This document shows positions 1 to 27,788 of a stretch of DNA of 64,000 nucleotides, in pieces. The stretch is taken from positions 3,795,326-3,859,325 of the forward strand of contig NZ_CP084098.1 of assembly GCF_036345015.1 (NCBI RefSeq), given 5' to 3'. The DNA is from Cyanobacterium sp. Dongsha4 (lineage in GTDB: Bacteria > Cyanobacteriota > Cyanobacteriia > Cyanobacteriales > Cyanobacteriaceae). How positions within the stretch are numbered: position 1 is the stretch's first letter; every line of letters starts with the position of its first letter. A model generated the notes under the pieces. The model was given only the letters and a program-made list of their open reading frames with translations. It searched no databases and was not told where the DNA came from. Position numbers and translations under genes: made by a program.

Positions 1-1376
1 ATTATCCCGATGAGTTGATTGTTGCCCGTCAAAGTGCACCTTTAACCATTGGATTTGGGCAAGGGGAATTTTTCTGTGCCTCGGATGTTACCGCCCTTGT
101 GCATCATACCAACACGGTTTTATCCTTAGATAATGGGGAAATTGCCCGTTTAACACCATTAGGAGTCGAAATTTACGATTTTACAGGGAAACGCTTACGG
201 AAAAACCCTCGCACCCTCGATTGGAGTCCTGTAACCGTTGAGAAACAAGGTTATCGCCACTTTATGCTCAAGGAAATTCATGAGCAACCCTCTGTAGTGC
301 GTACCTGCTTAGAAGCCTATATTAATCCCGACTGGCATTCCCAAAACAGTGACTCAGAAAACCCCATTAACCTCAATCTCAAGCCTGAAATTTATGAAGA
401 TTTAGAACATATCCAGATTGTGGCTTGTGGCACTTCTTGGCACGCAAGTTTAGTGGGTAAATATTTATTAGAACAAATCGCACAAATTCCTACTTTTGTC
501 CAATATGCTTCAGAATATCGTTATGCCCCTTCTCCAATGATGCGTAATACAATTACAATCGGTGTTACCCAGTCAGGTGAAACGGCGGATACCATTGCGG
601 CTCTTGAGATGGAGCGTCAAAGACGTTCTAGTTGCGATCGCACTTATCAAGCTCGTATTTTAGGTATTACAAATCGTCCTGAAAGTACGTTAGGGGGCAT
701 GGTTGATCAAGTAATCAATACTTATGCAGGTATCGAGATTGGAGTAGCGGCAACTAAAACTTTTGTGGCTCAAGTGATTGCGTTTTATATCCTTGCGTTA
801 GATTTAGCATGGCGTAGAAAAACAGTTACACCGCAAAGAATGGAGGAAATATTAAAAGGTTTACTGCAATTACCCACCCAAATCGAGCAAATTATCCACT
901 CAGAAGAGCCAAAAATCAGAGATTTAGCCCATCAGTTCCCTGATACCAAAGATTTTATCTTCCTCGGTAGAGGTATCAATTTCCCCATTGCCTTAGAAGG
1001 TGCGTTAAAACTCAAAGAAATTAGCTATATTCATGCTGAAGGCTATCCTGCTGGTGAAATGAAACATGGTCCGATCGCACTTTTAGATGCTCATGTACCC
1101 GTAGTTGCGATCGCCATGGGGGGAAGTGTATATGAGAAGGTGATTTCCAACGCCCAAGAAGCGAAAGCGAGAGATGCCCGTTTAATCGGTGTTTTACCCC
1201 AAAACCATCATGAGGATATGTTTCAAGATACTTTACTCGTGCCTGAAGTGGATGAAATCTTGTCTCCTATCTTGGCAGTCATACCCTTGCAATTATTATC
1301 TTATTACATTGCATCCATGCGCGGTTTAGACGTAGATCAACCTCGTAATTTGGCTAAATCCGTTACGGTAGAATAA
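1..1376 (+). CDS. glmS: Glutamine-fructose-6-phosphate aminotransferase, C-terminal part
   Basis: The gene makes glucosamine-6-phosphate from fructose-6-phosphate and glutamine for cell-wall synthesis. The reading frame is open from the window edge (codons from base 3 read YPDELIVARQ), so the 5' part, including the catalytic N-terminal cysteine, lies outside. What is visible is the end of the glutaminase domain, then two SIS sugar-isomerase domains (VACGTSWHA near residue 137 and FLGRGINFPIALEGALKLKE near 316) and the canonical end LAKSVTVE. The last codons of glmS are the classical recognition site of Tn7-family TnsD proteins, and a Tn7-like end starts 25 bases after this stop. This is a core gene, unlike all that follows. 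Confidence 0.97.
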   Translation, partial: YPDELIVARQSAPLTIGFGQGEFFCASDVTALVHHTNTVLSLDNGEIARLTPLGVEIYDFTGKRLRKNPRTLDWSPVTVEKQGYRHFMLKEIHEQPSVVRTCLEAYINPDWHSQNSDSENPINLNLKPEIYEDLEHIQIVACGTSWHASLVGKYLLEQIAQIPTFVQYASEYRYAPSPMMRNTITIGVTQSGETADTIAALEMERQRRSSCDRTYQARILGITNRPESTLGGMVDQVINTYAGIEIGVAATKTFVAQVIAFYILALDLAWRRKTVTPQRMEEILKGLLQLPTQIEQIIHSEEPKIRDLAHQFPDTKDFIFLGRGINFPIALEGALKLKEISYIHAEGYPAGEMKHGPIALLDAHVPVVAIAMGGSVYEKVISNAQEAKARDARLIGVLPQNHHEDMFQDTLLVPEVDEILSPILAVIPLQLLSYYIASMRGLDVDQPRNLAKSVTVE

Positions 1377-1401: not shown

Positions 1402-1426
1402 TGTGATAGGGGAATAAAGTTGTATA
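1402..1426 (+). repeat. glmS-proximal end of Tn7-like island 1
   Basis: The tip is TGTGATAGGGG, followed by AATAAAGTTGTATA, the presumed TnsB-binding site. It mirrors the distal end at 23441-23465 with the same 11-base offset. I see no further clear copies between here and the first gene at 1586; that stretch is AT-rich and otherwise featureless. Confidence 0.88.
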
Positions 1427-1585
1427 TTTTAAAATTAAGTGGTATATCCCAATTATAAACGATTTGCGTAAAATTAGCTATCCCACTAAATATTTTTTAA
1501 AATTTCACAACTGATTTAATACAGCTATATATAAAATTTTAGCTTTAAAATATTTTAATTTTCGTTATGTACTTTCTGTTAAAAT

Positions 1586-2500
1586 ATGCCAAAAACTATT
1601 TGTATTTCTTTACTATGTTTTCTTTTTCTTATTGCTTATCCTTTTAAAAATAAAACGGAAAGTAGTCCCATAATTAATACTTTACCAGTTCAAACAGTCT
1701 CAGAAAAAAAGCCTATTGGTAATAATGAATACGAAGAAAAAAAGTTTCAGCAAATTATGAATTTATCACTAGCTAACAAACTGCAGGAACAATCTATAGA
1801 GATCATTCTCCAAACAGTTGCTAAAGAATTTATGGGGGCAAAATATCAAGCTGGTTTATTGGATCAAACTAACAAAGAAAGTTTATTTATTTCTTTAACT
1901 AAATTTGATTGTGTTTTATTTGTCGAGACTGTACTAGGTTTAGTGAAAGGAATTACTGTTCAAGACTATAATTATTCTACTTTTATTACAAATATTCAAA
2001 AGCAAAGATACCGTACCCAAAATGTTACTTATTGCGATCGCCTTCACTATTTTTCTGATTGGATAGCAGAAAATGAAAAGAAAGGATTTGTAAAGAATTT
2101 AACTCAATCATTAGGAGGAATACGACTGGATAAACAGCTTAATTTCATGACAGTGAATAGGTCTAAATATCCTCAATTAAATAATAATGAAATTAATTTT
2201 CAATGTATAAAAAAAGTTGAAGCAGATTTAAACAAATTAAACTTAAGTTATATTCCCACCAATAAAATAAAATCTATTTATCCTCAACTTAAATTAGGGG
2301 ATATTATCGGTATCACTACGAAAATAAAAGGTTTAGATGTCACTCATACGGGGTTAATTTACCGACAAAATAATCAAACTGGTTTAATTCATGCTTCTCC
2401 AGCAGGGCAAGTTACTGTTGCTAAAGATTTACAAAGTTATGTACAAAATGTTCCACAGGCGATAGGAATTTTTGTTATTCGTCCACTTGATCCTCGTTAA
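1586..2500 (+). CDS. Secreted DUF1460 family protein (N-acetylmuramoyl-L-alanine amidase-like)
   Basis: The 304-residue protein starts with a hydrophobic segment (ISLLCFLFLIAYPF) that can serve as a signal peptide or anchor. The rest fits the DUF1460 family of NlpC/P60-like cysteine amidases. Visible family marks are FDCVLFVETVLGL near residue 107 with the likely catalytic cysteine, CDRLHYFSDW near 150, DVTHTGLIY near 250 with the likely histidine, and LIHASPAGQV near 265. It probably acts on peptidoglycan peptides in the periplasm. It is the first cargo gene inside Tn7-like island 1 and has no obvious operon partner. No good ribosome site precedes the ATG. Confidence 0.8.
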   Translation: MPKTICISLLCFLFLIAYPFKNKTESSPIINTLPVQTVSEKKPIGNNEYEEKKFQQIMNLSLANKLQEQSIEIILQTVAKEFMGAKYQAGLLDQTNKESLFISLTKFDCVLFVETVLGLVKGITVQDYNYSTFITNIQKQRYRTQNVTYCDRLHYFSDWIAENEKKGFVKNLTQSLGGIRLDKQLNFMTVNRSKYPQLNNNEINFQCIKKVEADLNKLNLSYIPTNKIKSIYPQLKLGDIIGITTKIKGLDVTHTGLIYRQNNQTGLIHASPAGQVTVAKDLQSYVQNVPQAIGIFVIRPLDPR

Positions 2501-2632
2501 TGTATTATCCTGCTAGAAGGTTTCATAAAAGATAAAACACCAGTCAAGCAAATTTAATAAAAATAGTGCAATAAGTTAAATGGTATCTCTTTTCTTTGTA
2601 AATCCCTTCTGTATTTTTACTTTTTTTATAGA

Positions 2633-3022
2633 TTAATCGCCAGAACAAGCTGAAGGAGTTTGACTACTTGGACGTTGGTTATTCACACAACTCATTGTAC
2701 CATCGCTACCTAATAAATATTTATCTTCTATATAGCCTTCTACTGTTGTACCGTTAGATTCATAATATATTTCCCACCAAATATTTCCCTTAGAATCATA
2801 ATACATTGTTGGATAATCACTTTGAAAGCTAGATAGTACAGTTTGATTGTTTTTTATTTTATATATTGTTACTCCACTATTATCAGGTATATGTTTTATC
2901 GGCACAGTAGCCAATCCTCTAGTATTTACCTTAAAACTGTGATGAGTAGCGGCTATACTCGGTAATATTTTTATTCCGAGAATAGCATAAAGTATTATTA
3001 ATAAATTAATAGTTTTTCTCAT
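2633..3022 (-). CDS. Small secreted protein with SH3-like fold
   Basis: The 129-residue protein has a signal peptide ending near PSIAA. The mature part (VTIYKIKNNQTVL, GNIWWEIYY, VEGYIEDKYLL) looks like a bacterial SH3b domain: short strands with a W at the core and a G-Y-I near the end. This is a fold guess, not a confirmed family. The C-terminus is short and Ser/Pro/Gln-rich with two cysteines that could pair. It is one of three small secreted proteins in a row near the island end. Function unknown. Confidence 0.6.
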   Translation of the reverse strand: MRKTINLLIILYAILGIKILPSIAATHHSFKVNTRGLATVPIKHIPDNSGVTIYKIKNNQTVLSSFQSDYPTMYYDSKGNIWWEIYYESNGTTVEGYIEDKYLLGSDGTMSCVNNQRPSSQTPSACSGD

Positions 3023-3098
3023 AATAAAACAGAAAATTAATTCATAAAAAATATATGGAAATTTCTTTAGGCAGTTTTTATTAGTCTAGAAGGACAGC

Positions 3099-3467
3099 CT
3101 ACCGCTCGATATTTCTGCAATAAAAGCTATTCGGATATTGTAAACACTCAGGTGGAATAGAACGTCTGCGTTCTGAGTTAGAAGAACCACCGAGATTGAA
3201 GTTATAAATTCTATCGCCAATGTAAATAGAAAGTAGTCCGTTAGATTCTTTCCAATAACCGTATATTTTTTTTCCAGACACGCTCCTGATAGCATCTCCA
3301 GAACGACCCACATAAAATGTACCCTCAGATGTATTTAAAACTCTACCATGTTTGTTATAAGTAATATTATAGAGCGTTTGGGCATTAACAGGACTCGAAT
3401 CTAGCAATATTCCCACGCAACTGATATTTAACGCTATAGCTATGCAAAAAGAGCATAATTTACTCAT
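3099..3467 (-). CDS. Small secreted hypothetical protein
   Basis: The 122-residue protein has a clear signal peptide (start MSKLCSFCIAIALN, likely cleavage after PVNA). The mature part is rich in Gly, Tyr and Ser (GRSGDAIRSVSGKKIYGYW) and ends with two cysteines (ECLQYPNSFYC) that could form a disulphide. I recognise no family. It lies 77 bases upstream of the SH3-like gene on the same strand, so the two may be co-transcribed. Confidence 0.6.
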   Translation of the reverse strand: MSKLCSFCIAIALNISCVGILLDSSPVNAQTLYNITYNKHGRVLNTSEGTFYVGRSGDAIRSVSGKKIYGYWKESNGLLSIYIGDRIYNFNLGGSSNSERRRSIPPECLQYPNSFYCRNIER

Positions 3468-3636
3468 AATATTAAACCTACTAGACTATAAAATAAAAGT
3501 GACGTTAGAATCTAAATGAATGATTAATAGATAAATATTTCTGTATTAATACTACCAGTGATTCTTTTATTTGTCTATTGTTATACTATAAAAATAGTAA
3601 CAATGAATCATTTAAGTCATTCACTTAATTAATAAT

Positions 3637-4029
3637 ATGGGATATTCCAATTTTGTAAAATTCCGTCTTAGTAGTTTTATATTATTTTTTACGATGTTTC
3701 TAACTATTCCAAATAATTCTGCTTTTGCCGATAACAGAAGATGTAAATTGCCCGATGGAAAAACAACCACTTGCAATGTGCAAATTTATGAATCTCAATT
3801 AAATGGTTATTTGGGTTATTCGGTAACTTTAAGATTTAATAATCAATTATTTATCGAAGCTTTTTGTACTGATGAACAGAGCCAAAATTGTCTAGTTAGA
3901 AGAACAAAAAATGGTATAAGAAGTAAATGGCAAAAAGGATATATTGATGGTTCTTCTAGTTACTTTTTTCATATAAAAACATCTGGAGGATTACTTTTAG
4001 GGTCTTATAATCCACCAGAACATATATAA
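3637..4029 (+). CDS. Small secreted hypothetical protein
   Basis: The 130-residue protein has a signal peptide ending at NSAFA. The mature part has four cysteines (RRCKLPDGKTTTCNV, EAFCTDEQSQNCLV) that suggest two disulphides in the periplasm. No family recognised. It is divergent from the 3467 gene across a 170-base AT-rich gap that probably holds both promoters. Confidence 0.55.
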   Translation: MGYSNFVKFRLSSFILFFTMFLTIPNNSAFADNRRCKLPDGKTTTCNVQIYESQLNGYLGYSVTLRFNNQLFIEAFCTDEQSQNCLVRRTKNGIRSKWQKGYIDGSSSYFFHIKTSGGLLLGSYNPPEHI

Positions 4030-4079
4030 TTTTTGTGATTCCACTTTCCCTACAAAAAAAGAGATCGCCCCTCGATTAA

Positions 4080-4685
4080 TTAGCCTGAGACTAATTTAGC
4101 AATCTCATCCTTATAAATACATAAAAAATTCTCCGCATGGGTAGCCCCTAATTTTTGAATCTCTGGTGGAAAATCATTTAAAGATACTATCTCGCCTTTA
4201 ATGTAAAGTTTTTTCGCCCCTTTTAGAGCCCCTCGGTGTAAATAAACCATTTTCGGTTGTACATCTAACCATGCTCCTAATCTTCGGGCAACATCATAGA
4301 TAGTAAGAGAACCAATACCTTCAGTCTTTTTGGTGATGGATTCGATCCAACAATAAACATCATGAAAGTCATTAAAACTGTCAAATTTTCTTTGATTACT
4401 TTTACAAATTGTCAAACCTTCTTCTAGCTTCTTTTTGCCCACATTGCACTGATGACCGTGCATCTTACCATTTTCCATTATCGATCGCCATGCTCTTTCA
4501 ATGGCTTCTGACCAAGAGATATTTTTGTCTCCCCACCATTTATCTTCCTCTTGATAGCAATTTTGACATTCTTCAAGATAGCAATTAACCAGAGTTGCTA
4601 AGGTATGATTTTTTAAATCTTTTTTTTTGCTTTTACAACTACAAATGGATTTTTTGCTCTGACATTTTTGAGATATTGATTTCAT
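4080..4685 (-). CDS. Hypothetical protein, Cys/Lys-rich N-terminus
   Basis: This is a 201-residue cytoplasmic-looking protein with no signal peptide. The first 55 residues are rich in Lys and Cys (CQSKKSICSCKSKKK, CYLEECQNCYQEED), which suggests a metal site. The middle has EKAWRS-like helices, and around residue 125 GIGSLTIYDVARRLGAWL resembles a helix-hairpin-helix or a small DNA-binding helix pair. No family recognised. It stands alone between the secreted-protein cluster and the cas6 remnant. Confidence 0.55.
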   Translation of the reverse strand: MKSISQKCQSKKSICSCKSKKKDLKNHTLATLVNCYLEECQNCYQEEDKWWGDKNISWSEAIERAWRSIMENGKMHGHQCNVGKKKLEEGLTICKSNQRKFDSFNDFHDVYCWIESITKKTEGIGSLTIYDVARRLGAWLDVQPKMVYLHRGALKGAKKLYIKGEIVSLNDFPPEIQKLGATHAENFLCIYKDEIAKLVSG

Positions 4686-4793
4686 TTGTATTTTAAAGTT
4701 TCCTTACTGAATGAATAAAAAAGAAGGTTATTTAGTTCTATATATTTATCCAATTCATTTGAAAGATTTATGCAGTTTGAGGTAAAAACTTTA

Positions 4794-5522
4794 TTAGAAA
4801 TCTTGTGCAGAAGTTATTACAGTATATAATGTGTTTTCATAATGACCTGTATAAACATACATTCTTGTTTTTTTATTGAAAAAAGCTATACTAATTATGG
4901 CATTATTTCCATGAGCTTGACAAGGTTTAGTGTTATCACATAGAGGTCCGTTAGTTGTGGTTGCTGCTTCTTCCAGTTCAATAATTTTAAAACCACCTTT
5001 ATATAACAAATCTTTAACCTCAAACATAGACATTCCAGGCTTTAAATAGCTAGGATTTATGTCTTGACAAATATAATGATATAAAGGACTTACTTGATGT
5101 CTCAAATAATAAGACCCGTCATCAGTATAAAAAGAAGATTGAAGATAACCATCTTTATAGCGTCTAAAAACTTTGAGATTTTTAAATTGAACACTATCCA
5201 CATTAGCAGGATTTGATTCATTACTTCTATAATTACAATCAAAATAACCTTGTCCTATAGAAGATAAATAGTATTTATCCATTATGAAATTTCCTTGTTC
5301 ATCATGGTCAGTATTTAATGTAGCAAAAGTTGCTGTTTTATATCTACCCTGTTGTTTAATGCTACCTTTTCTGATTTTGATGACTTCATAATCATTTCTA
5401 ACGACTGTTATCCAGTCTTTTTCTTCTTCCCAAATCGGATTATTATTAGCAATAGTAGGATTTATTTTAAGAAAAAAACTTATAGTTACAAGTGATAAAG
5501 TAAATATATTTTTGATAATCAT
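4794..5522 (-). CDS. Secreted hypothetical protein (about 242 aa)
   Basis: I start it at the ATG at 5522 because that gives a proper signal peptide (MIIKNIFTLSLVTISFFLKI, cleavage near TIAN) and an AGAGGAGA ribosome site lies just upstream. A longer in-frame start at 5567 would put charged residues before the signal. The mature protein resembles surface-adhesin-E-like cyanobacterial proteins: one domain of repeated strands with IKIRKGSIKQQGRYKTATF, then a second domain with LKPGMSMFEVKDLLYKGGF, like SmpA/OmlA-type repeats. Its 5' end faces the cas6 remnant within 40 bases. Role unknown. Confidence 0.55.
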   Translation of the reverse strand: MIIKNIFTLSLVTISFFLKINPTIANNNPIWEEEKDWITVVRNDYEVIKIRKGSIKQQGRYKTATFATLNTDHDEQGNFIMDKYYLSSIGQGYFDCNYRSNESNPANVDSVQFKNLKVFRRYKDGYLQSSFYTDDGSYYLRHQVSPLYHYICQDINPSYLKPGMSMFEVKDLLYKGGFKIIELEEAATTTNGPLCDNTKPCQAHGNNAIISIAFFNKKTRMYVYTGHYENTLYTVITSAQDF

Positions 5523-5539
5523 TGAGTATCTCCTCTCTC

Positions 5540-6156
5540 TGAGTAATGAAAAACCGATCATTTCCAACTATATCAATATCATTTTCCCCATTGTAGGCGA
5601 TAAAATTCCCTTCGATCATGGTTATCTTTTATATTCTGCCATCTCACGCCAATTTCCTATTATTCACGATATAGATGATTTAAGTATTTTACCCATTATT
5701 GGAAAGCCCGAATTTCCCCAAAATCTTTATTTAACCCCCGAATCTCAATTATGTTTGCGTTTATCCACTGATAAAGTACCTTTGATTTATCGTTTAGCAG
5801 GAAAAACACTAAATCTCAATACCGATAAGATTCGTTTAGGCTTACCAGAATCTCACGAATTAGAAGGATGCGATCGCCTCTATGCACGATTGGTTATCAT
5901 TAGAGGTTTTGATGAACCTAATGGCTTTATTAAAGCCGTAGAGCGTCAATTAGAAAGTCTGAATATCTCAGCAAAGGTCAATTTAACCACTAAATCAGGA
6001 AAACCCATCCGCCGCACCATGAAAATAAAAGGAAGAACATTGATTGGTTTCGGGGTAGAAATCAGTGAATTAAGTGAAGACAATTCGATTTTACTTCAAG
6101 AACAAGGTATTGGCGGAAAGCATAAAATGGGATGTGGAGTATTTGTACCAATGTAA
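5540..6156 (+). pseudogene. cas6: cas6 (Myxan/Cmx6 type), island 1 copy, 5' end abnormal
   Basis: The frame encodes a Cas6/Cmx6 family CRISPR RNA endonuclease: INIIFPIVGDKIPFDHGY at the start, LYARLVIIRGF in the middle and GIGGKHKMGCGVFVP at the end, which is the glycine-rich Cas6 signature. It is a clear paralogue of the cas6 at 39749. No ATG lies in the right place. The only in-frame starts are a TTG at 5512, inside the oppositely oriented secreted-protein gene, or a CTG, so the 5' end looks replaced at a junction near 5560. It is followed by a cas8 N-terminal fragment 9 bases on, with no cas3, cas7, cas5 or array. Bases 5594-6890 are duplicated at 27194-28513. Confidence 0.75.
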
Positions 6157-6165
6157 AAATCATTA

Positions 6166-6909
6166 ATGAATAAAGCAAAAATTAACCTTAGTATTCATGC
6201 CCCAGATACAACAATCATTCATAGGGCTGGAATATTAGGATTATGGATGACATTAAAACAACTAGAAGCGGAATTTCCCCAACCACACGATTGTTTAGGG
6301 GGAATATGGTGGAATTTGACAAATGATAGTATTAGCATTGATTGGCAAGGGGAAGACTTAGAGGTTTTAGATTGGCTATTGAAACAATCTTTTCGACTAG
6401 ATGATCGAGGTATTATTCAATTAACAGGATTGCAAAGAAAATCCATACCTTTAGAAAATCAAATACATCTACATCAAACAATTTTGGCTACTCTGTTACA
6501 GTACAATGGTTCTGTTCAACCATTAAAAAAAAGTTATTTTGAATCGGTAGATGTTCAAGTGGGAAATCTCAAATTAAGCCTTAGTTATAAACCACTGACT
6601 TCTTATTTCTACCAAAACTTTGCTTCTGAATTATGTGAGAAGAAAACCCAACAACTTAAGCAAAATCGTTATATTCCTATTGTTAGTCGTTTATATCCAG
6701 GGGCTATTGTTCAGCATGATTTAATTCGAGCGAAAAATCAGTGTCGAGAAAAGCTGGAATATGCTTTTGCTTTACTTTTTGTGCCGATCGCATCTCAATT
6801 TCTAGTTTTGTCTGAGGAGATAAAAAAACAAATTAGCTCAGAAAAAAGTCATCCCACAGAATATTTAATGATTATTCCAGAAACTACCAATCTGGAAAAT
6901 GATAATTGA
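6166..6909 (+). pseudogene. cas8 (Cas8a1/Csx13-like) N-terminal fragment, island 1 copy
   Basis: The 247-residue product begins NLSIHAPDTTIIHRAGILG, which aligns with the HRAGLAGL start of the full cas8 at 42713 and with the Csx13 N-terminal family of Myxan-type systems. Full proteins of this kind are more than 500 residues. Here the similarity between the two islands stops at 6890 and the frame ends a few codons later, immediately before a DNA methylase gene. So the C-terminal half of cas8 was cut away when the restriction cassette joined. It directly follows the cas6 remnant. Confidence 0.7.
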
Positions 6910-6941
6910 CAAGTATATGCTGTTTTCTCTATAATGAATAC

Positions 6942-6952
6942 TATAAGTATCT
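6942..6952 (+). promoter_or_regulatory. Candidate control-protein operator before the methylase gene
   Basis: TATAAGTATCT occurs here, 31 bases upstream of the methylase ATG, and again at 8980-8990 upstream of the HTH control gene of the same RM cassette. Near the second copy, GATACTTAT and ATGAGTATC form an inverted repeat (minus-strand reading). The placement fits C-box control, in which the C protein tunes methylase and nuclease expression. This is inferred from two copies only. Confidence 0.45.
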
Positions 6953-6982
6953 ACAATAGTAAAACCAAATAAATATTAAATT

Positions 6983-7819
6983 ATGTTTGATAAGATAATT
7001 GATAGTTTAGGTGAGCCATACTTTCAGACTGAAAATTGTTTGATTTATAATGCAGATTGTGTCACCTCAATGATAAAACTTCCACCCGAAATGATTGATT
7101 TAACAGTTACTAGCCCTCCTTACAATATAGGGAAAGAGTATGAGAAAAAAATGGATTTATCTGATTACTTAGATTGGTGTAAAAGTTGGTTAAAAGAAAT
7201 TTATCGGTTAACCACAAGTAATGGCTCTTTCTGGCTAAATTTAGGTTATCAAAGTGTAGAAAATATCGGTAAAGCTATTCCCATTTCATATTTTTTATGG
7301 GATAAAACTGCCTTTTTTTTAATTCAAGAAATTGTTTGGAATTATGGTGCTGGAGTAGCTTGTAAAAATTTTTTTTCTCCCAGGAACGAAAAATTCTTAT
7401 GGTACGCCAAAGATCCTGAAAATTATATTTTTAATTTAGATGATGTTCGAGATCCTAATGTTAAGTATCCTAATCAAAAAAAGAATGGTAAATTGAAAGT
7501 TAATCCAAAGGGTAAAAATCCGACTGATGTATGGCAATTTCCCAAAGTAACATCTGGTAGAAATCGTTCATCTAACGAAAGAACACCACATCCTGCACAA
7601 TTTCCCATAGCTGTTATTGATAGAATTATTAAAGCTAGTTCTAATCCCCAAGATGTTATTTTAGATCCTTTTTTAGGTTCAGGTACAACAGCGATCGCCT
7701 CTATTAATCTAAATCGTAAATTTATTGGTTTTGAAATTAATAAAACTTATTGTGATATAGCGGTAGCAAGAATTAAACAAAAATTATCTCAACCTGTTCA
7801 AACTTGTTTAAGTTTATAA
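6983..7819 (+). CDS. Type II DNA methyltransferase (beta class, N4-cytosine or N6-adenine)
   Basis: The 278-residue enzyme transfers a methyl group from S-adenosylmethionine to an exocyclic amino group and protects the host from the partner nuclease. The catalytic motif SPPYNIG is near residue 42 and the cofactor motif DPFLGSGTTAIAS near 226. Catalytic before cofactor is the beta order. It converges on the nuclease gene (stops overlap by 6 bases), which is transcribed from the other side with its regulator. The methylase follows the cas8 fragment directly and is cargo between the duplicated cas and tnsD arms. Confidence 0.9.
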   Translation: MFDKIIDSLGEPYFQTENCLIYNADCVTSMIKLPPEMIDLTVTSPPYNIGKEYEKKMDLSDYLDWCKSWLKEIYRLTTSNGSFWLNLGYQSVENIGKAIPISYFLWDKTAFFLIQEIVWNYGAGVACKNFFSPRNEKFLWYAKDPENYIFNLDDVRDPNVKYPNQKKNGKLKVNPKGKNPTDVWQFPKVTSGRNRSSNERTPHPAQFPIAVIDRIIKASSNPQDVILDPFLGSGTTAIASINLNRKFIGFEINKTYCDIAVARIKQKLSQPVQTCLSL

Positions 7820-8719
7820 AATAAACCAAGATACTTTGTTAATAAGTTTATTATTATTGTAATAATTGTCTTGGGAAATATATAGTTTATTTAATAAAAA
7901 TAATATTTTTTCATCTGCAACAATTTTTTTACGTTGCTTAAGTTTTTCTAGTAACTCATAAAAATAAAAATTTAAAAGTCGGGAGTATTTGCTATTTAAC
8001 TGTTCAGCAATCTCAACTAAACATACATCAATAACCCATAAGTCAGAGATTTTCAAAATTCCTTGTTCTTTCAATTCTTTTTCTTTTTTGTCTCCTATAC
8101 CTTCTAAAATATACAAGGGGGATCTTAATAAATAACTGCCAGAAACTGCAAATAATTTAGTTTGATAGACTTCTTGTTTTAATTTTGACATTTGACCTGA
8201 TTCAGATGATTGAGATTGCCAATCCTCAAAATCAATCCAACCAAAGCGAATTAATGTTAAAGTATCTTGATAAAAGTTAATTGTCAGATAATATCCTGAT
8301 TTTTCTTTTTTGACCAAAACTTCATCCTGAGATTTTTTGCCATAACTACGATTTCCAAAAATATCAGTTTTTTTCTGACCTGAAGTTTTAATTTCTACAG
8401 AATAATAAGGATTTTCAATATAGACTAAATCTTTATCTTCTTTGTGTGAACCACCACACCATTTATCAGGATATTGTTCAGCAAGAATATAAGCAAATAA
8501 TTTCTCAAAAAAATAACCTATGACGGTTGCAGGTAATTTTATATCTTTTAATGGAATCTTTGTTAATTCATCTCCTATTTTTGTTTGCCAGAGAATATTC
8601 CAAGCTCTTACTGCTATATCTTCAATTTCTCCCAATGATAGAGGATGATCCTCAATTAGTTCTTTTGTTTTATCTATCCAAGAATCTTTGTCTAAGTTTT
8701 GATAGGGAGAATTATTCAT
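7814..8719 (-). CDS. Type II restriction endonuclease, ScaI-like
   Basis: The 301-residue protein lies tail-to-tail with the methylase and just downstream of an HTH control gene, the usual layout for a type II nuclease. Around residue 105, YSVEIKTSGQ is a PD-(D/E)XK-type catalytic core (E-x-K) and is followed by FGNRSYGKKS, which I associate with the ScaI family (RE_ScaI). Near residue 210, GIGDKKEKELKEQGI is a helix-hairpin-helix-like segment. That it is a nuclease is likely; the ScaI label, and hence any AGTACT specificity, is from memory of the family and needs a profile search. Confidence 0.7.
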   Translation of the reverse strand: MNNSPYQNLDKDSWIDKTKELIEDHPLSLGEIEDIAVRAWNILWQTKIGDELTKIPLKDIKLPATVIGYFFEKLFAYILAEQYPDKWCGGSHKEDKDLVYIENPYYSVEIKTSGQKKTDIFGNRSYGKKSQDEVLVKKEKSGYYLTINFYQDTLTLIRFGWIDFEDWQSQSSESGQMSKLKQEVYQTKLFAVSGSYLLRSPLYILEGIGDKKEKELKEQGILKISDLWVIDVCLVEIAEQLNSKYSRLLNFYFYELLEKLKQRKKIVADEKILFLLNKLYISQDNYYNNNKLINKVSWFIL

Positions 8720-8937
8720 TCAATTGTTTCAATTAATTTATAAGGTGGAATTTCTAATACTTTTGCGATGCGAATAATATTTAATAAAGATACATTTCTT
8801 TCACCTCTCTCTATTCCTCCAATATAAGTTCTATGAAGTTGGGTTAATTCAGCTAACTTTTCTTGAGATAATCCTTTTTCTTTTCTATACTTTCTAATTT
8901 GGTCTCCGAACTTTTTTAAATTGATATTTTTTTCCAT
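8716..8937 (-). CDS. XRE-family control (C) protein of the type II RM cassette
   Basis: The 73-residue helix-turn-helix protein has FGDQIRKYRKEKGLSQEKLAELTQ followed by the recognition helix HRTYIGGIERGERN. I start it at the ATG at 8937 (MEKNINLKKF), not at the upstream in-frame ATG, since C proteins begin close to the first helix. Its stop overlaps the nuclease start by 4 bases, so the two are translationally coupled. Such proteins bind C-boxes and delay nuclease synthesis until methylation is complete; candidate operators are at 6942 and 8980. Confidence 0.85.
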   Translation of the reverse strand: MEKNINLKKFGDQIRKYRKEKGLSQEKLAELTQLHRTYIGGIERGERNVSLLNIIRIAKVLEIPPYKLIETIE

Positions 8938-8959
8938 AAAAGACAGTATAAAGATAATG

Positions 8960-8990
8960 ATACTCATAAGCCTACAGAATATAAGTATCT
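8960..8990 (-). promoter_or_regulatory. Candidate C-box inverted repeat upstream of the control gene
   Basis: On the minus strand GATACTTAT and ATGAGTATC form an imperfect inverted repeat about 25-45 bases upstream of the control-protein start. The outer half is identical to the 11-mer before the methylase gene. The site touches the truncated start of the tnsD remnant, so the RM cassette brought its own promoter to this junction. Confidence 0.4.
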
Positions 8991-8996
8991 TTTCTT

Positions 8997-10492
8997 GTTT
9001 TTGTCGCCAATGTTTACAGGAGGATGAAGAAAAATACGGGGAATTTTATTGGCATCGCATTCATCAACTGTCTTGTGTGTTAGTTTGTCCAACCCATAAT
9101 ATTCCATTACAAAATAGCACCCTACTGTTTCAACAATTAAATCAACATCATTATCAAGTAGCGAGTCATCATAACTGTATTTCTAAAGGTTCGATCGCAC
9201 CATACTCTCCACAAAATCAGAACATACTATTGAACTTAGCCCACGATGTTCAATGGCTGTTCAATCATCCTCAAATTTCCCGTCCCCTGGACTGGTATTA
9301 TCAGCAATATATGAATTTGTTGATGTCGAGAAATATTGCCACAGCATCCAAAAGAGTTAATCAGATGAAATTGTTTGATGAATTTTTGTTTTACTATGGA
9401 CAGGACATTCTCAGTTATTTAGACTCTGATATTAATCTCGATGACCAAAGTAATTGGTTATTCAGTATAGTTAGAAAACACCGTAAATCCTTTCATCCTA
9501 TACGTCACATCTTGATGATGAGATTTCTTTGTGGTTCGGTGCGAGAATTTTTTGAACGAACATCATCGGAATATAAACCCTTTGGCAATCCTCCTTGGAT
9601 TTGTTTTAATGGGGCTGTTGATCATTACTTACAAGCTGTAATTGAAGAAGTTGAGTTAAGTCACTGCTTAGAAAATAAGAAGCCGTTAGGAACATTTACT
9701 TGCAGTTGTGGAATGGTTTACAGTCGAACAGTATCGGAATCAGATCAATCTGAGGGTTATAAACCGAATCGAATCATCACCTATGGAGACAAGTGGCATA
9801 AAAAATTACAAGATTTAGTAGAGAATAAAAATTTGGGATTAAGGGCGGTTGCTAGAGAATTAAAGGTAAATACAAGAACCATTAATCGCTATGTGGATAA
9901 GTTGGGCTTAAATGCTTCATGGCAATCAGAAACAAATAAGTTTGCCCCAATCAATGATACTAAAGAGGTTGATGATAAGGCACAAAATAGACAAGACTGG
10001 TTAGAATTACTAAAACAGTATCCTGACGCAACAAAGACTGAACTGAGAAATTTATCTCCTGCGTTATATGCTAGATTGTATAGAGGCGATCGCATCTGGT
10101 TAAATAACAATTCACCGTCTTTGCAAAAACCACCTGTATCAGTGAATAAGAGAGTGGATTGGGGTAAAAGAGATCAGGAAGTAAAAATGCAGGTAGAAAA
10201 GGCAGTTCAAGAAATTTTACAAAAGGATAAACCAGAAAGAATTACCTTGAGAAAAGTGGGTGTTATGACGAGATTAAAAGCACTTTTAGAGCATAAATTG
10301 GATAAATTACCTCTAACAAAAACTTATCTACAAGAAACTATCGAGTCAGTGGAGATGTTTCAGGATTGAAGGATAAGATGGGCGATCGCAGTCTTAGAAC
10401 GACAGGGAGAGGAAGTAAAATCATGGAAAATCATGCGAATAGCAGGATTGAGAAATAATTGTTTAGAAAGAGTAGAGAACATACTATATTAG
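8997..10492 (+). pseudogene. tnsD: tnsD remnant, island 1 (N-terminus missing, in-frame stop)
   Basis: The frame encodes the C-terminal two thirds of a TnsD/TniQ-family target selector. It begins at the zinc motif FCRQCLQEDEEKYGE then WHRIHQLSCVLVCPTH (C-x2-C...C-x2-H), continues with helix-turn-helix stretches such as LRAVARELKVNTRTINRYV, and ends with the long TnsD-type tail. The N-terminal glmS-binding part is replaced by the RM cassette junction near 8997. A TGA at 10367-10369 interrupts the frame, but in the same frame WAIAVLERQGEEVKSWKIMR follows, the usual TnsD end, up to the TAG at 10490. Bases 8997-9929 are duplicated at 31083-32015. No tnsA, B or C lies nearby. Confidence 0.85.
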
Positions 10493-10555
10493 GAATAATG
10501 GTTGTATCAGATTTTTTCTACTCCAATGTAATTAGTAATCAAGAAACAATTAAGA

Positions 10556-12091
10556 ATGGCGAAATTAACTTTACCTCAACTAGAAAGACATTTATTTAGT
10601 GCGGCGGATATTTTACGGGGGAAAATGGACGCTTCGGAATTTAAAGAATATATTTTCGGGATGCTTTTCTTAAAGAGGGCTTCAGATATATTTGATCAAA
10701 GGTATGAAAATATTATTAAGGATAATATAGCGAAAGGAAGAAGTGAAGAAGAAGCACAAAAACGAGCAGAATCACCTAACAGTTACATAGAAACCTTTTT
10801 TATCCCTGAAAAGGCACGATGGCAATATATTCGAGATGAGTTACACAAAAATGTTGCCGATGGTTTAAACAAAGCACTGGGTGCATTAGAAGAAAATAAT
10901 GAGGCTTTAAATGGTGTACTAGGACATATCGATTTTAATCGTCAGGTGGGCAGTAATCGAATGTCAGATAGTAAGTTAAGGGATTTAATTCAGCATTTTA
11001 GTAAGTATCGTTTACGCAATGATGATTTTGTCTTTCCTGATTTGTTGGGGGCGGCTTATGAATATTTAATCGCTGAATTTGCTGACTCCGCTGGAAAAAA
11101 AGGCGGTGAATTTTATACTCCCCGTGATGTGGTGCAGTTAATGGTGCGTTTAGTAAAACCCGAAGCAGGTATGTCAATATATGACCCCTGTATTGGTTCG
11201 GGAGGTATGTTGATTCAAGCCAAGCAATATGTAGAAGAATGCGGTGGAGATTCTCGTAATTTGGCTTTAGCAGGGCAGGATAATAATGGCGGTGTCTGGG
11301 CTATCTGTAAAATTAATATGCTCTTACATGGAATTAGGGATGCTAATATTCACAATGATGATACTCTAGCTAATCCTCTCCATTTAGATGGTAATGAATT
11401 AATGCGGTTCGATCGAGTTTTGAGTAATCCGCCTTTTTCTCAGAATTACACAAAAAAAGATATTAAATTTAAAGAGCGTTTTAGTCATGGTTGGTGTCCA
11501 GAAACGGGTAAGAAAGCCGATTTAATGTTCGCTCAACATATGTTATCGGTGTTAAAACCAAAGGGAATTATGGCGACTGTTATGCCCCATGGGGTATTAT
11601 TTCGGGGAGGTGATGAGCAAAAAATTCGTAAAAGTTTGATTGAAAAGGATTGTTTAGAAGCGGTTATTGGTTTACCACCTAATTTATTTTATGGTACTGG
11701 TATCCCTGCCTGTATTTTAGTAATGCGTCATTCAGGGGCAAAATCCCCAGAGCGTCGGGGTAAGGTATTATTTATCAATGCTGATGGGGAATATTATGCT
11801 GGTAGAGCGCAAAATTATCTCAAACCTGAGCATATCGAGAAGATTATCTCAACTTTTACGGAGTTTAATTCTATTTCAGGTTATGCCACAGTAGTTAGTA
11901 AGGAGGAGTTGGCACAGAATGATTATAATTGCAATATTCGCCGTTATGCCGACAATGCACCGCCACCAGAACCTCATGATGTCACTGCCCATATTTTAGG
12001 CGGTATTCCTAAAAAAGAAGTAGATAGCCAATTATCTTTACTTCAAGCTCATGGTTTTAATGCGATCGAGATTTTAGTCCCTAGAAAGTGA
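10556..12091 (+). CDS. hsdM: Type I restriction-modification DNA methylase HsdM, N-terminal fragment (split gene)
   Basis: The 511-residue part holds the helical N-terminal domain and the N6-adenine methylase core: [15 protein letters not shown] near residue 184, [10 protein letters not shown] near 209 and catalytic NPPF near 290. It ends soon after [11 protein letters not shown]...HGFN. In uninterrupted relatives the protein goes straight on to a DYFDF...FIPHITEKNQIKPF segment, which here appears only at 13608 onward, after 1.5 kb carrying two TA pairs. The catalytic part is intact, so methylation may survive if the two pieces assemble. Confidence 0.85.
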
Positions 12092-12138
12092 AATAATAGT
12101 TAATAATAAATAATTAATGATTGTTAGAATAACTAATT

Positions 12139-12369
12139 ATGCTCGTTAGCGAAGAAATTACTATTCAAGTTACCCCCCAAGTGGCTAAAGCCTACCAATT
12201 AGCTACCGAAAAAGAAAAACAACGCCTTAGCGCGATCGCATCTTTATTCTTTGATGAAGAAGCAAAAGAAGATATTGATTTTTTAGGTAGAATTATGGAT
12301 GAAATCAGTGACAGAGCAGTCGCTAGAGGTTTGACACCTGAAATTTTAGCGGATATTCTCAATGACTGA
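12139..12369 (+). CDS. Antitoxin of a PIN-type TA pair
   Basis: The 76-residue acidic protein (ITIQVTPQVAKAYQLATEKEKQRL then EILADILND) has the size, composition and gene position of an antitoxin. It overlaps the PIN-domain gene downstream by 8 bases. The pair sits inside the split hsdM gene. Confidence 0.75.
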   Translation: MLVSEEITIQVTPQVAKAYQLATEKEKQRLSAIASLFFDEEAKEDIDFLGRIMDEISDRAVARGLTPEILADILND

Positions 12370-12790
12370 TTTACCTAAATATGTGCTTGATACTAATGTA
12401 ATAATTAGTGCTTTGTTATTTAAAAATAGTCAACCTCGTCAAGCATTAGATAAAGCAAGACAGTCGGGAATAGTGTTAATGTCACAAGAAATTTGGACAG
12501 AAATTCAAGAGGTTTTAGCACGTCCTAAATTTGATAAATATATTACTTATGGAGAGAAAAAACTATTTTTAATTGAGTTAGTTAACACAGTAAATTTTAT
12601 CGAAGTAAAAGAAAATATAACGACTTGTAGGGATGCTAAAGATAATAAATTTTTAGAGTTAGCTGTCAGTGGTTTAGCCTCCATAATTGTTAGTGGAGAT
12701 AATGACTTATTGATATTAAATCCTTTTCAAAATATCCCTATTTTAACGGTAAAAGAGTTTTTGAAAAACGATCGCACTAAATCTTCTTAA
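12362..12790 (+). CDS. PIN-domain toxin (COG1569 type)
   Basis: The 142-residue putative RNase has the PIN acidic residues: VLDTNVIISALL at residue 8, EIQEVLARPKF in the middle, CRDAKDNKFLELA near 100 and SGDNDLL near 118. PIN toxins cut RNA in a metal-dependent way and are blocked by the partner antitoxin encoded just upstream with an 8-base overlap. It is part of the insertion that splits hsdM. A related pair lies at 52489-53161. Confidence 0.85.
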   Translation: MTDLPKYVLDTNVIISALLFKNSQPRQALDKARQSGIVLMSQEIWTEIQEVLARPKFDKYITYGEKKLFLIELVNTVNFIEVKENITTCRDAKDNKFLELAVSGLASIIVSGDNDLLILNPFQNIPILTVKEFLKNDRTKSS

Positions 12791-12841
12791 GAAATGATTT
12801 CTCCTAATCCCATTTAATAAAACTTAATCAAAAGGGGAATT

Positions 12842-13159
12842 TTATTGTTTTTGATAATGGTAACGTGCTTGTAGAAAATCGATTCTTTCGGCAGTGACAC
12901 GATAAACTAATCTATGTTCTAAATCAATTCTACGAGACCATGTATCAGAATCTAAAAATTTTAATGGTTCAGGTTTACCTATACCTTCTAAGGGAGATTT
13001 GATAATAGCTTCAATTAAATCCAGAATTTTATTAGCTTTGGTTTTATCTGTGCGATACCACCATGCTAAATCTTCCCTAAAACGAGGGTGAAATACGGGA
13101 AATCTTGAATTTGTACTTAAAGATTGATTTTTCTCGGTTTTTTTCTTTTTATCTTTCAA
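12842..13159 (-). CDS. YoeB/Txe-family mRNA interferase toxin
   Basis: The 105-residue protein resembles YoeB/Txe ribosome-dependent RNases: FREDLAWWYRTDKTKANKILDLI, SPLEGIGKPEPLKF, WSRRIDLEHRLVYRV and the C-terminal YHY. It has a Lys-rich N-terminal extension, so the true start may be inside. The antitoxin gene lies upstream with an 11-base overlap. This pair points the opposite way to hsdM. Confidence 0.88.
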   Translation of the reverse strand: MKDKKKKTEKNQSLSTNSRFPVFHPRFREDLAWWYRTDKTKANKILDLIEAIIKSPLEGIGKPEPLKFLDSDTWSRRIDLEHRLVYRVTAERIDFLQARYHYQKQ

Positions 13160-13445
13160 TCTTTAACTCCTCACATAATTCATCAACACTGTTAGGTGAT
13201 GGAGGTGTTTGAGTATCCCATTTTTTTGAATCTTCTAATGCTTCTAATAAACGTTGTGCATTGACAGGCGATCGCAATAAATATATAGTTTCTAAAATGC
13301 TAGATAATTCATCGGCACACAACAGAGCAATATCTTTATGCCCCCGTCGTTTAACTACGGCAATGGTATTGTCATTTTCTATGTCGTTTAAAAGATTGGC
13401 TAGATTTTCTCTGGCTTGAGTGTAAGTGGTTTCGATGGAAAACAT
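13149..13445 (-). CDS. Phd/YefM-family antitoxin
   Basis: The 98-residue protein begins METTYTQARENLANLL-like (MFSIETTYTQARENL) and continues AVVKRRGHKDIALLCADEL, the Phd/YefM DNA-binding fold. The acidic C-terminus would wrap the YoeB-like toxin encoded next. The pair normally represses its own promoter, here in the 13446-13540 gap. Confidence 0.85.
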   Translation of the reverse strand: MFSIETTYTQARENLANLLNDIENDNTIAVVKRRGHKDIALLCADELSSILETIYLLRSPVNAQRLLEALEDSKKWDTQTPPSPNSVDELCEELKIER

Positions 13446-13548
13446 ATTATGATAATCTGTCCAGTTTTTCTGTACATTTATTGATTTTCCCAGTTTAGCT
13501 TAAAATGATATAAAAATGATCCTCTTTAATACCCTTAATTAATGAAAT

Positions 13549-13583
13549 GATCCTCCCTAACCCCCCTTAATAAAGGGGGAATT
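13549..13583. repeat. GC-rich palindromic repeat, copy 1 of 3
   Basis: The core CCCCCCTTAATAAAGGGGG sits inside a 35-base unit that also occurs at 18975-19011 and 59960-59994 (opposite strand). It runs into the start of the hsdM C-terminal frame and marks the right edge of the TA insertion. It could fold as a hairpin. Dispersed repeats of this look are frequent in cyanobacteria. Confidence 0.75.
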
Positions 13584-14718
13584 GAACCTTTATCTATATC
13601 ACTTAAACATCGTGGAATATTTTGACTTTATCCCTCATATCACCGAAAAAAACCAGATTAAGCCTTTTATTGAACAGGATAAGGGTGTTATTGCCAAAGA
13701 GCAAGAATTACATAAGGCTTTTAAGGGTTGGTGGGAGTTAAACGCCCCTAATTTGGCTAAATTGCCCGAAAATAAGGCAGTAATGCAGTTAAGAACCGAT
13801 TTTATGGCTTCCTTTGTGGAATCTCTGCAACCTGTGGGTTTATTGGATAGGTTTAAGGTGGCGGGTGTTATCGCTAGTTGGTGGGATGAGGTGCGTTATG
13901 AATTGCGCACTTTATCGGAGTCGGGTTTTAATGGTTTGGTTGATAGTTGGGTGGATACTATTAAGGATGGTTTGGCGGATAATGATGACGGTAATAATAA
14001 AGCTAAGTTTGATCCCCTTAATCATAAGTTAGTTAAAGTGTTATTGGCGGATTATTTGGCAGAAATTGAAGCAGTAGAGGGCAAAATTGCGGAATTAGAG
14101 CAGGAAAAGGAGAGTTTTGAGCAAGGAGAAGGGGGAGAGGATACGGAAGAAGGGGAAGATGTGGTTAATGTGGCGAAGGAGTTGGAAAGTCAGGTTAAGG
14201 AGTTAAAGGCTAGTATTAAGGATGCGGAAAAAAGGATTAAGTTTTTAAACCGCAGTGCTAATGTGAAGGATAAGGGTTCTATTGCGGCTAAGAAGAAGCT
14301 AGGGGAAGATACAACGGCATTAGAGCAAGAATTGGCGGATTTAGAGGCTTTTGTTACTCCTATTACTTTGGAAATAACGGAAATTGAAGAACAGTTACAG
14401 CCTTACAATGAGTTAAAGGAAAGGCTAAAGGAGGCTAAAAATGAACTTAAAGGGTTAAAAAATAATTTAATTGAGCGTTTAGACGAGGCGAGAATGGCTT
14501 TAAGTGATGATGAATGTCAAAAGCTCGTGTTAGCTATCTTTTTGGAGGGTTTAGAGCAAGAGTTAGAGCGTTATGTAACTGCCCACCGTCAACAGGTTAT
14601 CGCTGTGGTTGAGAATTGGTGGGATAAGTATCGGGTTACTTTTCGTTGTCTTGAGGAGGAAAGAAGTCAGGTTGTTAATGAGTTAAATTCTTTTTTTGAG
14701 GGGTTGGGTTATGTCTAA
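13582..14718 (+). CDS. hsdM: HsdM C-terminal fragment (split gene), coiled-coil extension
   Basis: The frame begins at a TTG, but similarity to HsdM begins at EYFDFIPHITEKNQIKPF a few codons in. It then has the usual HsdM tail (WWELNAPNLAKLPE, LLDRFKVAGVIASWWDEV, GLVDSWV) and about 200 residues of charged coiled coil (KELESQVKELKASIKDAEKRI). The tail contacts HsdS and the other HsdM in the complex. This part is separated from the catalytic part at 10556-12091 by TA genes. The last 8 bases overlap hsdS. Whether a separate polypeptide is made is unclear. Confidence 0.8.
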   Translation: MNLYLYHLNIVEYFDFIPHITEKNQIKPFIEQDKGVIAKEQELHKAFKGWWELNAPNLAKLPENKAVMQLRTDFMASFVESLQPVGLLDRFKVAGVIASWWDEVRYELRTLSESGFNGLVDSWVDTIKDGLADNDDGNNKAKFDPLNHKLVKVLLADYLAEIEAVEGKIAELEQEKESFEQGEGGEDTEEGEDVVNVAKELESQVKELKASIKDAEKRIKFLNRSANVKDKGSIAAKKKLGEDTTALEQELADLEAFVTPITLEITEIEEQLQPYNELKERLKEAKNELKGLKNNLIERLDEARMALSDDECQKLVLAIFLEGLEQELERYVTAHRQQVIAVVENWWDKYRVTFRCLEEERSQVVNELNSFFEGLGYV

Positions 14719-16039: not shown

Positions 16040-16053
16040 AATTGAGGATAAAT

Positions 16054-16290
16054 ATGAATATAGACACACTAAAAAATCAAATTCGTTACCTAACCAACCA
16101 AGAAGGAAAACCCACCGATGTTTTAATTCCCTTAACCATTTGGGAGAGTATCATCGAAAAACTTAACCTCGAAATCACGGAAGAAAATGACAGTAAAGCC
16201 CAACTCATCGCCGACTTTAAACAAAGTTTAATAGATGCTAAAGAAGGGAAAACTTACCCCCTTGAAGAACTTTGGGAGGGAATAGATTGA
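16054..16290 (+). CDS. Small antitoxin-like protein
   Basis: The 78-residue protein (MNIDTLKNQIRYLTNQEGKPTDVLIPL) has the acidic C-terminus typical of antitoxins (DAKEGKTYPLEELWEGID). I use the ATG at 16054, not the upstream TTG. It lies 3 bases before a RelE/ParE-fold toxin gene and 15 bases after hsdS, so it rides in the RM operon. Confidence 0.75.
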   Translation: MNIDTLKNQIRYLTNQEGKPTDVLIPLTIWESIIEKLNLEITEENDSKAQLIADFKQSLIDAKEGKTYPLEELWEGID

Positions 16291-16293
16291 TAA

Positions 16294-16629
16294 ATGAAAG
16301 AAATAAGATTTACTGCCCCTTTTAAACGACGACTTAAACAATTAGCTAAACGTTATCGCCGAATTTCTCAAGATATTCAACCACTTATAAATGATTTACA
16401 ACAAGGAAACTTAATAGGTAATCAAATTACAGGAGTATCGCAAATAGTTTATAAAGCAAGAGCAAAAAATAGCGATATTCCCACAGGTAAAAGCGGAGGC
16501 TATCGGCTTATTTATCAAGTGGTTTCTAATCAAATAATATTACTACTGGTAATTTATGCCAAATCAGACCAAACTAATATTAGTACTGAAGAAATAGAAA
16601 GTATTATCAAACATACCTTAATAGAATAA
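16294..16629 (+). CDS. RelE/ParE-superfamily toxin
   Basis: The 111-residue basic protein has the RelE/ParE pattern: FTAPFKRRLKQLAKRYR at the start, GKSGGYRLIYQVV in the middle and ILLLVIYAKSDQTNIS near the end, as in translation-targeting toxins. The partner antitoxin is encoded just upstream. The pair sits between hsdS and the embedded genes before hsdR. Confidence 0.85.
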   Translation: MKEIRFTAPFKRRLKQLAKRYRRISQDIQPLINDLQQGNLIGNQITGVSQIVYKARAKNSDIPTGKSGGYRLIYQVVSNQIILLLVIYAKSDQTNISTEEIESIIKHTLIE

Positions 16630-16660
16630 AAATTGATTTGAATGTCATAATGGTTCGTAG

Positions 16661-16716: not shown

Positions 16717-16730
16717 ACTTTTTAAAGAAA

Positions 16731-17315: not shown

Positions 17316-17337
17316 ATTTTACTATAATTTCAATTTT

Positions 17338-27779: not shown

Positions 27780-27788
27780 AAATCATTA

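Follow-up and report, generated by a model that had tools for sequence, protein, structure and literature searches.

The window, i.e. the whole stretch of 64,000 nucleotides of Cyanobacterium sp. Dongsha4 that was analysed, starts in the 3' part of glmS, which is followed by two Tn7-like islands lying one behind the other, here termed elements A and B (Table 1). The left end of element A lies 25 bp after the glmS stop, its termini TGTGATAGGG and TGTAATAGGG match at 9 of 10 bases and its CCTTT target duplication is intact. With one mismatch allowed, the 13-base end repeat ATACAACTTTATT has six matches in the window where 0.57 would be expected, a count reached in none of 100 shuffles, and it marks the left end at 1402, three right-end sites up to 23465, the left end at 23471 and the right terminus at 38772. 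At the left end of A two such sites were seen, one of them with two mismatches. All features looked for in a Tn7-like transposon at glmS (TGT..ACA ends, repeated sites, a 5-bp duplication and a position about 25 bp after the gene) are present in A, and only part of them in B, where the right terminus is followed by CGACC and no matching target duplication was found. An earlier note, made from the sequence alone, had placed both elements at the glmS site; this holds for A, which lies directly at the gene, but B sits behind A. The repeats at 23294 and 38733 of the window self-comparison, considered as stray CRISPR repeats, proved to be transposon ends; other repeats in that comparison lie at 13548, 18973 and 59957.

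Table 1. Features of the two islands (window coordinates)
Feature	Position	Strand	Basis or remark
glmS 3' part, attachment site gene	15..1376	+	SIS domain; stop at 1374-1376
Tn7-like element A	1402..23465	.	termini TGTGATAGGG / TGTAATAGGG, CCTTT on both flanks
cas6 copy A, open	5512..6156	+	TIGR02807, PF09559
cas8 N-terminal fragment copy A, 247 aa	6166..6909	+	TIGR03485; aligns to residues 14-249 of Cas8 8fcj_I
N6/N4 DNA methyltransferase, RM cassette 1	6983..7819	+	PF01555, PADLOC MTase_II
ScaI-like restriction endonuclease, RM cassette 1	7814..8719	-	PF09569, PADLOC REase_II
HTH controller-like protein, RM cassette 1	8716..8967	-	PF01381
tnsD remnant copy A	8997..10486	+	PF15978; alignment to 627-aa Crocosphaera TnsD
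Cargo of A	10541..23330	.	type I RM (HsdM, HsdS, HsdR), GmrSD-type protein, YgjP-like
Right end of A; three end repeats at 66-bp spacing	23310..23454	+	
Tn7-like element B	23471..38772	.	degenerate left end directly after CCTTT copy
cas6 copy B, broken by 23-bp insertion	27157..27776	+	
cas8 N-terminal fragment copy B	27789..28628	+	CAST-like to about residue 244
C5 DNA methyltransferase, RM cassette 2	28642..29751	+	PF00145
Type II restriction endonuclease, RM cassette 2	29754..30653	-	PADLOC REase_II, E 6e-36; no Pfam match
XRE-like HTH (controller-like), RM cassette 2	30640..30900, approximate	-	three-frame reading; family by eye
tnsD remnant copy B	30988..32016	+	starts near residue 92, IS-cut
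Right terminus of B, one end repeat left	38749..38772	+	

The orphan Myxan-type cas6-cas8 fragments reported in these islands were confirmed by profile matches, and a second copy is present. Cas6 of copy A matches TIGR02807 with E 3e-61 and 206.7 bits (NCBIfam cut-off 98.85), and the Cas8 fragment of A matches TIGR03485 at model positions 3-222 of 316 with E 6e-56 and 189.4 bits (cut-off 80.85). In the PDB the two proteins match at E up to 1 only 8fcj and five further entries (Cas6 E 1e-45; Cas8 E 1e-51, with residues 14-249 of 534 aligned), whose own label reads 'Type I-B CRISPR-associated protein'. We take these entries to be a type I-B CRISPR-associated transposon (CAST) complex, and 8fcj to be of I-B2. 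The second cas6-cas8 copy was found by window self-comparison at 27194-28521 with 93.8% DNA identity to copy A, and a genome search with the Cas8 piece at E 0.001 returned copies A and B only. The first 46% of cas8 is present in both copies, in agreement with the half gene noted for each, and the two breakpoints lie within about 10 bp of each other as judged by eye. Cas6 was likewise said to remain in each element, and is open in A but interrupted in B.

As for tnsD, also claimed for each element, a piece is found in both but the whole gene in neither. Copy A lacks about 123 N-terminal residues, resumes near residue 124 of its 627-aa relative and has an in-frame TGA about 48 codons before the relative's end; the part at 8997-9930 is 94.8% identical to 31083-32016 of copy B. 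The TnsD Pfam profile at E 0.001 finds only these two copies in the genome. Two IS-like copies in element B (32010-33309 and 37168-38467) are 99.7% identical, their protein has no Pfam match, and the first of them interrupts tnsD.

Between the cas8 fragment and the 5'-truncated tnsD both elements carry a type II restriction-modification (RM) cassette, and the cassette differs between the copies. The HTH protein of cassette 1 is probably a C protein. Site-specific insertion of the cassettes was considered as the cause of the near-identical cas8 breakpoints; no common motif was seen by eye in the aligned junctions. Much of the cargo of A is common to the family genome G117.

Genes missing from the islands

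In relatives (L043, L045 and L055, the last with a tnsD match covering residues 1-485 only) the gene order is glmS-tnsA-tnsB-tnsC-tniQ-cas6-cas8-cas7-cas5-tnsD, and a CRISPR array between cas5 and tnsD was read in L052. In A and B other genes have taken the place of all that precedes cas6 in this order, and the RM cassette replaces the stretch that reaches from about codon 245 of cas8 into the 5' part of tnsD, so that the cassettes occupy the former place of the Cascade genes. No cas3, cas7, cas5, TnsA, TnsB, TnsC or TniQ gene was found in either element. A complete Cascade (Cas6, Cas8, Cas7 and Cas5 without Cas3) is thus not present, Cas8 itself being cut at about residue 245, and of a pair of TniQ and a TnsD with TniQ domain there remain only positions 109-142 of 142 of the TnsD domain in A and 85-142 in B. 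Self-comparison at E 1e-5, which a one- or two-repeat array could escape, detected no CRISPR array in A or B; the only arrays that it gave in the window are at 46434 and 54131. As none of these cas genes, no array and no tnsABC gene was found in the elements, the term derelict, used in the earlier note for a type I-B CRISPR-associated transposon, fits them.

Elsewhere in the genome, queries with I-B1-type TnsC gave no match, and TnsB is represented by weak pieces only (28-37% identity). TniB-type ATPase genes of other transposons have three Pfam matches, the best with 126 bits, and this family is present in 13 of 14 control genomes. Such ATPase genes lie at C1:1556018-1556725 and C1:1839403-1839708, one of them beside a TnsB piece; ATPase and TnsB piece look like remains of another Tn7-like transposon type.

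Further relics were observed in the window. A third, divergent tnsD relic (47204-47638) is 44% identical to residues 37-100 of the Crocosphaera TnsD, followed by an apparent HTH part. Its start lies a few bases behind the final repeat of the array at 46434-47199 of the resident cas3-bearing system, and the order array-then-tnsD at 46434-47638 is the order found in CASTs. There follow an OrfB_IS605/TnpB-type gene (47825-48919), with a 90% homologue inside the tnsD relic of family genome G041 (L116), and on the minus strand a group II intron with a reverse transcriptase-maturase gene (48928-50757; Rfam, Pfam). The second CRISPR array lies with type III effector genes (RAMP, Cmr3) at 54131-63265.

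Kinship of the Cascade and transposition genes

An alignment scan of genome contigs gave 63 loci; a single-protein scan gave none. The 63-row Cas8 tree was built carefully, the other trees quickly and without bootstrap. In the Cas8 tree the label CAST means that the stretch holds no cas3, and 6 of the 26 stretches so labelled are without any tns gene (L037, L038, L039, L044, L047 and L048). The labels I-B1 and I-B2 follow the TnsB type or, where a stretch has no TnsB, the nearest Cas8. Among the I-B2-labelled loci used, three (L053, L056 and L189) showed TnsAB directly, and none was seen in the 20 kb around the L218 cascade. From the TnsB, Cas7, Cas5 and joined trees 25 locus ids judged to repeat a contig already included were dropped, and rows fitting no label or too short were left out of the trees. 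Rows with cas3 were thinned to at most 12 in the Cas7, Cas5 and TnsB trees and to 24 in the joined tree, where I-B2 rows were thinned to 14.

The phylogeny of the Cas6 and Cas8 pieces, which the earlier note had proposed as a check, places them with the CASTs. In the tree of the Cas8 N-terminal part there is one CAST clade of 28 rows (26 CAST and 2 window rows) with support 100/100 and none of the 34 cas3-system rows. Within it a 21-row clade holding the window lineage and 16 I-B2-like rows has support 100/100, and the window pieces group with Crocosphaera and Okeania loci at 100/99. The resident Cmx8 (42713) sits on a branch of length 6.7. The Cas6 tree gives the same kind of grouping (20 rows, support 95), with the family genome G013 inside. 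Likewise, the window lineage groups with I-B2 in the Cas7 tree (54 rows) at 98 and in the Cas5 tree (52 rows) at 100.

The transposition genes of the relatives point to the other type. In the TnsB tree (18 rows), which carries a long-branch warning, G013 and an Okeania fragment group with I-B1 at 100, far from the TnsAB of I-B2. The nine best other rows for the TnsC of G013 are all I-B1 at 54-61% identity, whereas TnsAB-type loci reach 23-26%. The best rows show 35-37% identity to the TniQ of G013 and 50-52% to the TnsD of L052, and among the matches of these two there are no TnsAB-labelled rows, such rows being few. The TnsD of L052 is in turn 55-57% identical to that of the window. I-B1-type transposition proteins are hence found in relatives and not in the window: TnsB, TnsC and TniQ in G013, pieces of TnsB and TnsC in Okeania, and TnsD in L052. 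Fused TnsAB and tRNA homing are not seen in this lineage, as G013 has separate TnsA and TnsB and the glmS site. The two gene sets are physically linked: tniQ and cas6 of G013 are 39 bp apart, and in Okeania the tnsB-tnsC pieces run into cas8-cas7-cas5.

When Cas5, Cas7 and Cas8 were joined in one tree of 57 rows, which include the PmcCAST-host locus L218 and none recognised by name as AvCAST, the 33 CAST rows came out as a single clade (support 100) nested within the cas3 systems. The AU test gave p 9e-88 for the window lineage and I-B1 as one clade, p 0.0032 for I-B1 grouped with cyanobacterial cas3 systems and separated from the remaining CASTs, and p 0.0023 for I-B2 and the window lineage with cyanobacterial cas3 systems apart from I-B1; it should be noted that the groups were named after the trees had been seen, which makes these p-values optimistic. 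The Cas7, Cas5 and joined trees and the AU test thus agree that the Cascade of the relic lineage is not of I-B1 type, and by branch lengths it is more diverged from I-B1 than the TnsB of the lineage is. The relics seem to stem from a CAST lineage with I-B1-type transposition genes and a Cascade sister to that of I-B2.

A single clade of CAST Cascades, together with I-B1-type tns genes beside an I-B2-kin Cascade, suggests one domestication followed by a transfer between backbones, as judged from few loci. We lean somewhat towards a reading of the gene trees in which the Crocosphaera, Okeania and SU3 loci and the window's family make up a third lineage of type I-B CASTs, its transposon being of I-B1 type and its Cascade sister to I-B2; the Cascade of all I-B CASTs would have been domesticated once and later moved once between deeply different Tn7 backbones, either into I-B2 or into the window lineage, instead of being captured twice, and in the window's family the module would have been lost repeatedly and the transposon kept as a defence island.

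Decay in the family and its timing

The glmS flank of 10 other family genomes was examined for ATACAACTTTATT at up to one mismatch. The repeat was found in 7 of them (G041, G117, G159, G013, G064, G204 and G100), in G204 as one site with one mismatch and in G100 about 19 kb downstream of glmS. No such match was detected at the flanks of G083 and G195, and G146, where the sequence ends about 110 bp after glmS, was left out of the scan. Among 15 family genomes a CAST-type Cas8 is present in the window's own genome only, the Cas8 match of G117 belonging to a cas3 system (L141), and 4 of them have a TnsD above the Pfam cut-off. With the TnsC of G013 as query, 2 of the 15 gave a match, G013 itself and G172, where two adjacent TnsD genes and a TnsC 40% identical to that of G013 (G172:C1:1378561-1383754) make up a different Tn7-like element.

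The lesions differ from island to island. G013, whose element has the same end repeat as those of the window, has retained tnsA-tnsB-tnsC-tniQ together with a cas6 that is 82% identical to that of the window and lacks the final codons; methylase and helicase cargo comes next. By eye, the end of tniQ in G041 leads into tnsD at about residue 69. The tnsD of G159 begins at about residue 75, has a single in-frame stop and lies behind a C5 methylase of the opposite strand. In G117, as judged by eye, the left cargo of B meets the right cargo of A, and just 19 bp from the 3' end of tnsD separate the two. The CRISPR module is thus lost in six islands of five family genomes with varying breakpoints; A and B share that of cas8 to about 10 bp and differ at tnsD. 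Similar relics were observed outside the family. L077 (11793-12405, plasmid Cy782201 of Gloeothece verrucosa PCC 7822) holds another cas6-cas8 N-terminal relic, closest to the window lineage (cas6 58% and cas8 64% to L052). The I-B1-type locus L050 (Nostoc sp. LPT) has a tniQ remnant, cas6, cas8 in two frames, cas7, cas5 and a full-length tnsD, with no tnsABC between glmS and cas6, and is another decaying CAST.

We conclude that islands A and B are very probably the remains of type I-B CASTs that homed through TnsD to the 3' end of glmS and are no longer self-mobile. According to the mechanism that we propose, the original CASTs would have homed in this way and then lost the tnsABC-tniQ side together with the rest of cas8, cas7, cas5 and the array, keeping ends and cargo. 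Cascade assembly, RNA guiding and TnsC recruitment would then be impossible in A and B, and the remainder would therefore act as a fixed defence island, in which the cas6, cas8 and tnsD pieces would at most provide homology through which islands recombine.

Between A and B the dN/dS is 0.135 for the cas8 fragment (25.5 synonymous and 14.5 nonsynonymous changes), 0.196 for cas6 and 0.182 for tnsD. As controls we used 12 hand-picked pairs, 8 of CASTs and 4 of cas3 systems. For cas8, 7 of the 8 CAST pairs, some of them drawn from cut or decaying loci (L050, L070, L072 and L114), lie at 0.119-0.237 and one (L072/L114) at 0.59, while the cas3-system pairs gave 0.045, 0.082, one pair without nonsynonymous change and one undefined value. 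As the values for A and B resemble those of the CAST pairs, most of the divergence between the copies seems to have accrued while a CAST-like constraint still acted, and the breakage to have come afterwards. Continued selection on the truncated pieces may be compatible with the low dN/dS as well. Beside the breakpoint the cas8 fragments share 187 identical bases, with 40 differences in 732 bases overall (permutation p about 1e-4), which suggests recent recombination near this point; such recombination may be the source of the near-identical breakpoints of A and B. It also counts against decay of two CASTs that breakpoints as close as about 10 bp in cas8 are not predicted by independent breakage, and that B lacks a matching target duplication.

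TnsABC from elsewhere could act in trans on A or B, and A might be non-autonomous yet mobile, moving when a related CAST supplies TnsABC and TnsD. The matching termini of A, its three right-end and two left-end sites and the intact CCTTT duplication show that its insertion was real transposition, and G013 encodes TnsABC-TniQ with the same end repeat. The genome, however, holds no I-B1-type TnsC and only distant TnsB pieces, and the insertion of A may predate the loss of tnsABC, and we find present mobility unlikely. Still less probable, in our judgement, is selection of the Cas6-Cas8-TnsD remnant for a new job, e.g. binding crRNAs of the resident arrays or the glmS site and thereby regulating the RM cassette or blocking other Tn7-like insertions. 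It would agree with the dN/dS of 0.135-0.196, with the lack of stops in the cas8 fragment or the compared part of tnsD, with the cut at nearly the same cas8 codon in both copies and with the statement, in excerpts of a review (PMC11656645), that CASTs can bind host crRNAs through Cas6. On the other hand B has a broken cas6 and an IS-cut tnsD, the tnsD of A is missing both its N-terminal part and its C-end, G117 has lost the whole piece, and CAST controls are similar in cas8 dN/dS, so that the signal predates breakage just as easily. That the fragments derive from the resident cas3-bearing CRISPR system, or group with its cas8 at 42713 as the earlier note allowed for, is hardly conceivable: both are I-MYXAN-type by model name, but the resident Cas8 is of another, very distant family (TIGR04413, at most 27% identity), the resident cas7 and cas5 are only 26-28% identical to those of CAST locus L052, and the 100/100 CAST clade rejects this source.

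Comparison with known systems

Decayed type I-B CASTs, as we interpret A and B, offer a natural example of the fate of a CRISPR-guided transposon, whose guide module disappears time and again but whose ends and defence cargo are retained. If the mixed lineage of I-B1 transposition genes and I-B2-kin Cascade is true, whole Cascade modules would be swappable between Tn7 backbones, a point relevant to the double origin that has been stated for I-B CASTs and to attempts at combining CAST parts. Excerpts of PMC11406308 hold I-B1 and I-B2 to be separate cooptions, those of PMC10293859 describe at least two independent captures of type I-B, and the part of PMC11656645 available to us derives two independent I-B captures from Cas7 and Tns trees. 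CASTs are also listed in a CRISPR classification (PMC12669027, in part). In titles and abstract openings, a scope outside which most subscription papers fall, we found no description of decayed or non-autonomous CASTs or of an I-B1/I-B2 Cas8 phylogeny of this kind.

Among Tn7-like transposons with defence cargo, RM genes are the commonest such cargo in the portion of Benler et al. 2021 (PMC8649781) that we used, as they are found in A and B. That survey, by the same portion, required TnsB, which puts elements like A and B outside its scope, and it mentions one Geminocystis transposon close to I-B CASTs that carries an adaptation module.

The closest Cascade and TnsD are those of Crocosphaera MO_133.B10 and MO_199.B6, Okeania SIO2B3 and unicellular cyanobacterium SU3 (L052, L114, L072 and L230). 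L052 has the order cas6-cas8-cas7-cas5-array-tnsD and L114 the same end repeat as the window, but these loci keep cas8-cas7-cas5, and their Cas8 is about 50-60% identical to the window pieces. Decay is seen here too, with a broken tnsD in L114, gaps in tnsC-cas8 and cas7 in L072 and cas8 in several frames in L230.

Type I-B1 CASTs (AvCAST, Tn7743), which according to excerpts of PMC11406308 home to glmS and are found only in cyanobacteria, resemble the relic lineage in the separate TnsA and TnsB of G013, the synteny and the glmS site. They differ from it in that its Cascade genes are not I-B1, and from the window elements in that these lack tnsABC, tniQ, cas7, cas5 and an array. With type I-B2 (PmcCAST, Tn7744; host Nostoc sp. 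'Peltigera membranacea cyanobiont' 210A, L218) the likeness is in the Cascade, the Cas8, Cas7, Cas5 and Cas6 of the relic lineage being sister to I-B2-labelled rows, whereas I-B2 has a fused TnsAB and a tRNA site (PMC11406308, in part) and a TnsC only 23-26% identical to that of G013.
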